Shown here in pieces: positions 6,565 to 64,000 of a stretch of DNA of 64,000 nucleotides. Under the pieces are notes generated by a model. It had not been told where the DNA came from and did no database searches. It saw only the letters and a list, made by a program, of their open reading frames with translations. This DNA comes from Candidatus Pelagibacter communis (GTDB lineage Bacteria; Pseudomonadota; Alphaproteobacteria; Pelagibacterales; Pelagibacteraceae), in contig NZ_CVSB01000037.1 of the NCBI RefSeq assembly GCF_001179845.1, positions 62,001 to 126,000 of the forward strand. The letters are read 5' to 3'. Numbering within the stretch: the stretch's first letter is position 1; every line of letters starts with the position of its first letter. Position numbers and translations under genes: made by a program.

Positions 6565-7278
6565 ATGAATTCATTAGATGCCAACATCAGAAATACCAAA
6601 ACTAAAGGTGAATTAAATTCATTAAGAGATAATGGTAATGTGCCTGCTATAATTTATGGTGGAGAGGCTCAAAACGAGAAAATTTCAATATCTAAAAAAA
6701 TACTCAAGTCACTAATTGAAAAAGAAAACTTTTTATCAAGCATCATAACTTTAAATATTGATGGCAAACCTCAAAAAGTTCTACCAAGAGAAATAAAATA
6801 TGACATTATTTCAGATGAACCAATTCATGTAGACTTTCTAAGAATAGTTTCAGGCATAAAAGTTAGAATTGAAGTTCCAGTAAAATTTTTAAATCATGAA
6901 AAATCACCTGGTTTGAAAAGAGGTGGGGTTTTAAACATTGTACGAAGAAAAGTTGAACTAAAATGTCCAAGCGAAAAAATTCCTGAAAATCTTGTAATAG
7001 ATCTTGATGGAGTTGATATTGGAGAGAGTTTTAAGATCTCTTCTATAAATCTTGACAGTGAAGTTACTCCTACAATTCAAGGAAGAGATTTCGTAATTGC
7101 AACTCTAGCAGCTCCGACTGTTATGAAAGAACCTGAAAAACCTGCAGAAGCTGATGCGGCTGAGGGAGAAGGTGCTGAAGGAGCAGAGGCGGCGGCAGCT
7201 GAAGGTGGAGATAAGACAGCAGCTGAAAGTGATAAAAAAGAAGGTGAAGATAAAAAACCCGCTGAAGAAAAAAAATAA
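6565..7278 (+). CDS. rplY: 50S ribosomal protein L25 (CTC type, long form)
   Basis: L25 binds 5S rRNA in the large ribosomal subunit. The 237-residue protein starts with the 5S-binding domain (RNTKTKGELNSLR, then VPAIIYGG) and continues with the TL5/CTC beta domain (VDFLRI, GLKRGGVLNIV). It ends in a tail of about 45 residues made almost only of Ala, Glu, Gly and Lys. Such acidic Ala-rich tails are common in alphaproteobacterial L25 and are probably disordered. The gene stands 45 bases after prs and 41 bases before pth. A second reading frame over the tail is a composition artefact and not a gene. Confidence 0.93.
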   Translation: MNSLDANIRNTKTKGELNSLRDNGNVPAIIYGGEAQNEKISISKKILKSLIEKENFLSSIITLNIDGKPQKVLPREIKYDIISDEPIHVDFLRIVSGIKVRIEVPVKFLNHEKSPGLKRGGVLNIVRRKVELKCPSEKIPENLVIDLDGVDIGESFKISSINLDSEVTPTIQGRDFVIATLAAPTVMKEPEKPAEADAAEGEGAEGAEAAAAEGGDKTAAESDKKEGEDKKPAEEKK

Positions 7279-7319
7279 GTTAATTAAAATTGAATTTTAT
7301 TCTCCAATATTAATATTTT

Positions 7320-61276: not shown

Positions 61277-62950
<1,674 letters not shown>

Positions 62951-62976
62951 TCCCCATTGTTCTCAAACAAAAATTC

Positions 62977-63008
62977 AAAAAGGGCAGTCTTTACTGCCCT
63001 TTTTTTTT
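62977..63008 (+). terminator. Intrinsic terminator of groESL
   Basis: A perfect 8-base stem AGGGCAGT/ACTGCCCT (62981-62988 with 62993-63000) closes a CTTT loop. It is preceded by an A run and followed by a T run to 63008. This is the only textbook Rho-independent terminator I see in the window. Confidence 0.93.
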
Positions 63009-63028
63009 GTTTATACGAAAATCATTAG

Positions 63029-63060
63029 TGATGAAGGAGTGATGAAGGAATGATGAAGGA
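63029..63060. repeat. Three tandem 11-base repeats with stop-start overlaps
   Basis: TGATGAAGGA occurs three times at 63029-63038, 63040-63049 and 63051-63060, each one base apart. A fourth TGATG occurs at 63066. On the plus strand each unit is a stop and start overlap (TGATG) followed by AAGGA, so the row reads as Met-Lys-Glu-stop twice and then a seven-codon frame ending at 63076. The function is unknown; a simple local duplication is possible. Confidence 0.75.
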
Positions 63061-63097: not shown

Positions 63098-64000
63098 TTA
63101 CTTATTTTTTCTATCTCTATAATCTTTATAAATTTTATCAAATATAAGATTTTTCAATCCTGAATTTTCATCAAGTTTTTTATAAAAATCAAATCTATCT
63201 TTAAGAAGAGATAAAATCACATTATCAAATTGTTTTTTGAAGTAATCTTGTTTATTTTGTTCTGAATTTGCTCCATTCATATACTTTTCAATTTCTTTAT
63301 CTTCAAAGATTTTTTGTCTAACATTATCAATATTCACTTTATCATCATCAGTTAAATTTATTCCATATCTTGAGTTAATTGTTTCAATTATTTCTGAAAG
63401 TAAATCTTTAACGGGAGGAGTATAAGTGCCAACTGCTGTTTTAATACCTTCGTAGTCATGATCCACTTTCTCTAATGGATCAATATGATCATGCAACTTT
63501 TGTATTCTTAATGACTCAAGGTCAATTAAATTTTCAATATTTACTCTTTCTTTTGTTTTTGGTTTTAATTTTTTTGATAAGTATCTATAAAAAATATAAT
63601 GTTTTTCTAATTCAACATCTGAAAAATTAATTATTTGAGATAAGTAACTGTATAATCTTATATAAGACGCAACTTTCAGTCTAAAATCTTCTCTTTGCTC
63701 ATCATCATCCAATGTAATCCATTTATCAACAACTTCATCTAAAACTGGATGAAGATTACCCTCTTCTCTATTTTTATCAAAAAATATTGAACAAAACTTT
63801 TCAACTTGTTCACTTGAAAATATTTTAAATTCATTAATTGAAGTTTGAATATCATAGAGTTTATTAGGATCTGTTTCTTCTTCAAGACCAACCTCTTGAT
63901 AGAATTTTTGAAATGAAAATCTAACTGTCTCTGGGTCGTTAGCAAAATCCAATACAAAAGTAAATGCCTTACCTGACATTGTTCGATTTAAACGAGATAG
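63098..64000 (-). CDS. hsdR: Type I restriction enzyme R subunit (HsdR), C-terminal part
   Basis: The minus-strand frame is open to the window edge and covers about 300 residues, with the N-terminal nuclease and most helicase motifs outside. The first visible residues, LSRLNRTMSGKAFTFVLDF, are the end of the helicase domain (motif VI and the following strand) of HsdR. The helical C-terminal domain follows with DPNKLYDIQTSINEF and LYSYLSQIINF, which in HsdR contacts the methylase core. HsdR translocates and cuts unmethylated DNA. The hsdM and hsdS genes should lie beyond the window. No true start codon is within it: the Met at 63979 is internal. Confidence 0.88.
   Translation of the reverse strand, partial: LSRLNRTMSGKAFTFVLDFANDPETVRFSFQKFYQEVGLEEETDPNKLYDIQTSINEFKIFSSEQVEKFCSIFFDKNREEGNLHPVLDEVVDKWITLDDDEQREDFRLKVASYIRLYSYLSQIINFSDVELEKHYIFYRYLSKKLKPKTKERVNIENLIDLESLRIQKLHDHIDPLEKVDHDYEGIKTAVGTYTPPVKDLLSEIIETINSRYGINLTDDDKVNIDNVRQKIFEDKEIEKYMNGANSEQNKQDYFKKQFDNVILSLLKDRFDFYKKLDENSGLKNLIFDKIYKDYRDRKNK

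Follow-up and report, generated by a model that had tools for sequence, protein, structure and literature searches.

In the draft genome of Candidatus Pelagibacter communis, a member of the SAR11 bacteria, the 3' end of groL is followed by a type I restriction operon, and both the operon and its carrier were analyzed here. The window, i.e., the whole 64,000-nt stretch of DNA under study (GCF_001179845.1, contig NZ_CVSB01000037.1, positions 62,001 to 126,000), contains groL and the 3' part of hsdR; the rest of the operon lies just beyond it. We read the carrier as a non-autonomous, defense-carrying integrative cassette of about 6.7 kb, located at the groL 3' end between attachment sites like those of phage lambda and moved by a recombinase acting in trans, and give this reading a probability of roughly 0.72. 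Both ends of the element, a right boundary at a copied groL end, and varied cargo within the same ends were observed directly, as were a corresponding site without insert, occurrence in divergent genomes, and the same layout at a second gene, ssrA. The restriction operon itself is ordinary. The unusual part is the carrier, which looks like a new form of site-specific island: small, recombinase-free, equipped with lambda-like arms, often loaded with restriction genes, and found at two conserved SAR11 gene ends. One part is known, since the accessible text of PMC8125051 already describes the groEL 3' end as an island site in staphylococci.

A complete restriction operon in a compact element

The genome (G000; throughout, G denotes a genus genome, C a contig, and L an analyzed DNA stretch) comprises 1.14 Mb in 63 contigs and is 92.2% complete. 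The window lies within contig C37, which extends about 5.9 kb beyond it. Its continuation was analyzed as L003 (G000:C37:124500-131865), and window numbering was carried past 64000 by adding 62499 to the L003 coordinate.

An earlier note, made from the window alone, had placed an hsdR gene at the window edge after groL. This gene is real. The minus-strand frame is open and continues off the edge; the fragment alone matches no family above cut-off, and the frame completed on the contig encodes a 982-amino-acid (aa) HsdR with SWI2_SNF2, ResIII, T1R_D3-like, and HSDR_N domains. The NCBIfam hsdR model matches the full protein at an E value of 8.5e-56, under the model's cut-off, and the NCBIfam hsdM match is likewise below its cut-off. 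The note had also proposed a search past 64000 for hsdM and hsdS, and both are present: HsdM (567 aa) and HsdS (436 aa) are encoded upstream of hsdR on the same strand with short overlaps, in the order hsdM-hsdS-hsdR, with hsdR as the last gene. All three subunits are recognized by PADLOC and Pfam. The closest solved relatives are EcoR124 HsdR entries for HsdR and 7vru for HsdM, and a regular-expression search found what we take to be Walker A, DExH, and PD-ExK-like motifs in HsdR and methylase motifs in HsdM. With the modification (M), specificity (S), and restriction (R) subunits encoded together, hsdR is, judging by these domains, the R subunit gene of a complete type I restriction-modification operon, with the same three genes and expected domains as EcoR124-like systems. 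A small gene beyond hsdM encodes 110 aa, or 133 aa when counted from an earlier TTG.

These three hsd genes and the 110-aa gene make up the contents of the element, both ends of which are seen. The left iterons lie about 79 bp past the groL stop codon, and the right copy of groL's last bases lies 6,707 bp past it, so that the end of the target gene is repeated at both borders, as expected of a site-specific island. The sequence past the right core shows 89 to 97% identity to the post-groL sequence of eight relatives (over the BLAST stretch of an 85-bp query), and the contig ends only 208 bp beyond this core. Insertion would leave GroEL intact and place the element's own terminator behind groL. 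The earlier note had pointed to tandem and inverted repeats in the spacer behind groL and had supposed the left edge of a larger defense island there. The repeats were confirmed, the tandem ones as three 11-bp direct repeats and the inverted one as the terminator-like hairpin of groL, but as part of the end of one compact element rather than the edge of a large island. What holds of that reading overall is a type I system that is complete and strain specific.

Conservation stops at the right boundary

Among GTDB species genomes, 28 contigs contain an exact 26-bp match to the right end (27 have Pelagibacteraceae in their titles and 1 has Pelagibacterales). The window's own genome is possibly absent from this set, of which 8 kb per contig was viewed. 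In these right ends, the majority base fraction is 0.96 to 1.00 in the 90 bp leading up to the stop codon, against 0.46 to 0.67 in the next 50 bp; agreement over the matched bases is by construction, because the ends were chosen by the 26-bp match and anchored on exact CAGTATGAGAATGTAA. At least 28 different 25-bp flanks stand behind the same right end.

Another comparison covered 55 pairs from 11 genomes, chosen by the left repeat and not by a right-end match. The 75-bp right end has a mean identity of 99.5% (minimum, 97.3%) and the nearby groL 82.7% (76.2 to 92.4%), with the right end being more alike than groL in all 55 pairs. In addition, relatives provide the unoccupied site expected for an island: the flank past the right end of L067 has 90.9 to 94.5% identity to the post-groL sequence in 11 of the 11 unoccupied genomes compared.

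Distribution and arm layout at groL

A groL DNA match was obtained in 330 of 399 genus genomes. In addition to L003, 120 stretches were taken, 60 for their iterons or their similarity in groL and then 60 more for groL similarity; 118 include the groL end and, with L003, give 119 loci. In 108 loci typA lies on the same stretch as groL, with a gap of 133 to 436 bp in 50 and of 916 to 8,914 bp in 58. These 58 occupied loci give no population frequency, because the sample was picked by iterons and groL similarity. The left iteron pattern (up to two mismatches) occurs in 19 of the 399 genomes, with none for the backwards control among the matches listed, and lies downstream of groL in 17 of the 19; the others, G109 and G206, have one common two-mismatch iteron sequence and no groL within the stretch fetched.

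Matched left and right arms were found in 11 loci, the window's included, with about 0.9 to 7.2 kb between them. A general 7-mer repeat test likewise returned 11 matched pairs, every one of the TGATGAAGG family. The left-arm layout (core, 74 to 80 bp, three iterons) is present in 18 of 119 loci and in none of the controls, and each of the 18 begins at the groL stop or at an internal core; the count misses L077, whose left arm is visible, as its groL end was set 9 bp late. Of 69 occupied regions, 19 show the right-arm layout (two iterons, then core), with 20 ends in all; reversed sequence, the minus strand, and window positions 1 to 62000 gave none, and the 952,171 bases beyond typA gave 2. The arm patterns for the groL test, as for the transfer-messenger RNA (tmRNA) test below, were written after examples had been seen. 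The same geometry is kept by further groL elements whose iterons have diverged (CAATGAAG, GATGAAC, and CAATGAAC). The distance from the first right iteron to the core end is 63 or 73 to 74 bp, a difference of about one helical turn, which suggests a protein-DNA complex. Insertions are stacked in L074, L079, and L184.

Relatives of this HsdR were found in 7 of the 399 genus genomes, four of them with the gene on the groL contig (G000, G311, G372, and G373); hsdR is not at groL in all close relatives. The HsdR search understates restriction in the genus, because it missed a dissimilar R subunit encoded at groL in G038 and G199. In L077, from another genome, the same operon stands at groL, with 92% (HsdR), 73% (HsdM), and 32% (HsdS) identity to the window's proteins.

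Cargo between shared right ends

Restriction-modification genes form the cargo in 13 of the 28 right-end contigs, 11 have other cargo, and 4 have none. The restriction cargo comprises type I systems like that of the window (L140, L151, L154, and L163), other type I systems (L149, L160, and L162), type I systems with a fused M-S protein (L145, L148, and L165), a C5 methylase with a HaeII-like gene (L141), a methylase with a HindIII-like gene (L138), and a C5 methylase with an HNH gene (L153); the system is only partly visible in L145, L148, L162, and L163. In L160, the restriction genes are separated from the right end by a DUF2130 gene; in L184, a longer stretch for the same locus, the nearest left arm belongs to a different iteron family. 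Other cargo includes DUF2130 (L143), MORN (L152), and DUF805 (L156) genes and, in L157, L158, and L161, genes without a Pfam match above cut-off. The contigs without cargo have nearly fused arms (L139 and L150) or stop at contig edges (L146 and L147).

Arms that are fused or nearly so, with no cargo between them, are seen in L139 near 7165-7300 and in L082 just past groL, as if iteron-iteron recombination had removed the cargo. Arm-bounded cargo without a Pfam match above cut-off lies at L066:719-2020, L068:1412-2725 (judged from its relative in L066), L069:739-2256, and L158:1013-2416, and the encoded proteins are candidates for unknown defense genes. The groL-typA interval and ssrA are places to seek new defense genes, because Pfam has no match for several cargo pairs. 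A YgjP-like metallopeptidase gene (L072:9021-9713; PF01863, E value 8.6e-60) directly follows hsdR in one groL element, and such a gene is also found beside the R gene in L162.

A second site at ssrA

The 110-aa gene is present in 43 of 300 genus genomes. Among 20 loci around its matches, 10 contain copies of AGAACGCCCC, 27 in total; in L245 and L250 this sequence is at the end of an Rfam alpha_tmRNA match, and ARAGORN predicts a tmRNA in 5 of 19 of the 110-aa loci. A right arm accompanies 9 of the 27 tmRNA 3'-end copies and a three-iteron left arm accompanies 6, compared to means of 0.17 and 0.05 and maxima of 3 and 2 (right and left, respectively) at random positions in 2,000 trials. CACGAAG iterons stand at both ends in L262 and L268. 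The L268 element, 5.2 kb at ssrA, has an R subunit gene and a gene for a fused M-S methylase, both of the kinds that L067 carries at groL.

Restriction or methylase genes, as well as copies of the tmRNA 3' end, often neighbor members of the 110-aa family (L241-L259), and the protein may have an accessory role in the cassettes. It has no match in Pfam or PADLOC and no good match in the PDB, phmmer returning as its best a single PDB match with an E value of 0.49. An AlphaFold model was too poor to use (mean predicted local distance difference test score, 52.9) and was discarded.

Proposed mechanism and alternatives

The att sites of phage lambda consist of a short core with arm sites in direct tandem. 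By analogy, a tyrosine integrase supplied in trans would act on the SAR11 element, a circular form of which would recombine at the core GGGA-ATGTAA-TCCC containing the groL stop codon. The three left and two right iterons would be arm-type sites for this integrase or a partner protein. The cargo would methylate host DNA and cut unmodified phage DNA.

Several observations weigh against such a cassette. The bases common to the left and right cores are few (ATGTAA to GAATGTAA). No right arm was recognized in 50 of the 69 occupied groL regions or at 18 of the 27 tmRNA copies, and in L064, L080, and L122 the left arm has no recognized right partner; with so many regions lacking a right arm and some left arms unpaired, much of the variation at groL is unexplained by the element. 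A profile built from 17 Pelagibacter recombinases, which distant ones may escape, matched none of 593 open reading frames (ORFs) from the groL regions and right-end contigs and nothing in the 20 loci surrounding the 110-aa gene. No circular form was seen. No vehicle was found in the viral contigs scanned with exact DNA patterns and the 110-aa protein, nor in the phage records searched by DNA with both ends. Although an island would be expected to have an integrase gene of its own, there is none among the ORFs of the window's element. HsdM has only remote relatives among phage records, with <60% identity in each of 20 records. A Streptococcus phage match to the element ends (E value, 0.1) was weak and was taken as chance.

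One variant of the cassette reading, which we consider rather unlikely, names the mover: in an integron-like division of labor, the single tyrosine recombinase resident in most Pelagibacter genomes and an iteron-binding partner would shuttle shared, recombinase-free defense cassettes at two or more fixed sites, the groL and tmRNA ends. If so, streamlined genomes could swap restriction specificities although no cassette would carry mobile-element machinery of its own. This variant draws on whole-genome Pfam searches. Among 18 genomes that carry iterons at or close to groL, 14 encode a single PF00589 protein, always off the groL contig (the remaining four, 57 to 90% complete, have none), and PF00589 occurs in 294 of the 399 genus genomes and 51 of the 57 near-complete ones; resolvases are absent from 14 of 14 genomes checked. 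The resident protein (317 aa; L125:1459-2409, on G000:C29) scores far under the XerC and XerD cut-offs (76 and 67 bits against 330 and 335) and, across the 16 loci viewed, has variable neighbors on one side. On its other side is a conserved small gene, ogt-like by eye (L124-L137, L176, and L178). However, it shows SAM-like and catalytic domains only and hence no evident arm-binding domain, no three-iteron array lies near it in the loci scanned, and it may do other work, such as chromosome dimer resolution.

It is unlikely, in our view, that the locus is instead a replacement island, in which homologous recombination swaps cargo and the conserved ends are mere shared flanks. The end identity of 99.5% would be enough to act as homology, the lack of a recombinase at the groL and 110-aa loci fits, and exchange of SAR11 O-chain islands with their flanks is reported in the accessible text of PMC4033161. 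Shared flanks would not, however, lead us to expect so many different sequences after one right end, identity that falls at the stop codon, a right edge marked by a second copy of groL's last bases, or the same layout at a second gene with a different core. Homologous replacement may nonetheless act on existing copies. An assembly artifact or chance neighborhood, conceivable for a draft in 63 contigs with a contig stop so close to the right core, is hardly credible, as it is contradicted by the recurrence of the same junctions in 28 other contigs and of the same operon at groL in L077.

Relation to known elements

The integrative cassette has counterparts in several systems. Staphylococcal islands with their own integrase use the groEL 3' end as their att site, according to the accessible text of PMC8125051. 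The phage-inducible chromosomal islands among them (SeCISE48 and relatives) have this site in common with the SAR11 element but encode an integrase and an excisionase and rely on a helper phage for packaging, whereas no recombinase was found in the latter and no helper is known for it. Instead of the integrase, regulators, and phage-interference genes that characterize such islands, it carries hsdM, hsdS, hsdR, and the 110-aa gene unmatched in Pfam.

The likeness to phage lambda consists of a core flanked by three arm sites at one end and by two at the opposite end. Unlike in lambda, no integrase gene adjoins the SAR11 site, the iterons vary by element family, and the role of the arms is proposed. 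Were the resident recombinase to drive the process, integrons would offer a parallel in cassettes that lack a recombinase and occupy fixed sites, but the SAR11 cargo consists of whole operons, and the recombinase gene that integrons have beside the attachment site was found at none of the groL or ssrA loci examined.

Tycheposons, as described in the accessible text of PMC10872708, have tRNA borders, a tyrosine recombinase, and sizes of 4 to 200 kb. Judged by that text, they resemble the SAR11 elements as cargo islands in streamlined marine bacteria and differ in these features: the SAR11 elements border groL or tmRNA, have no recombinase, and span about 0.7 to 7.3 kb where measured. For SAR11 itself, hypervariable regions (PMC2217521) and exchanged O-chain islands (PMC4033161) have been described, with no mention of the groL site in the accessible text of either. 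The open-access literature searched, outside which most subscription papers fall, contains no description of a SAR11 groEL or ssrA cassette.

SAR11 bacteria are among the most abundant cells in the ocean and are under heavy phage pressure, with little recognized mobile DNA. The cassettes would be a concrete vehicle for defense-gene exchange among them, one whose sites are fixed, whose ends are defined, and whose restriction systems can be swapped, and they would partly account for the patchy distribution of restriction genes among SAR11 genomes.

Feature coordinates and neighboring loci

The features of the locus are collected in Table 1. An Rfam scan of L003 returned nothing above a gathering score.

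Table 1. Features of the groL locus and the proposed cassette, in window numbering continued past 64000
Feature	Position	Strand	Basis or remark
groL	61289..62950	+	ORF; 3' end is the insertion site
Proposed left core, GGGA-ATGTAA-TCCC	62941..62954	.	Sequence; contains groL stop codon; junction reads GGGAATGTAATCCC
Terminator-like hairpin and T run behind groL	62977..63004	+	Sequence; inverted-repeat search
Left arm, three direct 11-bp iterons of the TGATGAAGG type	63026..63059	+	Repeat search and sequence
hsdR, 3' part in window	63098..64000	-	Gene runs on to 66046
hsdS	66043-67353	-	Beyond window
hsdM	67350-69053	-	Beyond window
110-aa gene	69136-69468		Beyond window
CTTTTGAATTG repeat pair	69551-69573		Beyond window
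Right arm, two iterons	69580-69601		Beyond window; L003:7081-7102
Right core, CAGTATGAGAATGTAA	69642-69657		Second copy of groL's last bases; L003:7143-7158

Gaps between groL and typA that contain genes but no recognized arms occur in L064, L083-L086, L088-L090, L109, L116-L120, and others. Their cargo includes an FkbM methyltransferase gene (L064) and a gene for a protein of about 500 aa that recurs in five loci.
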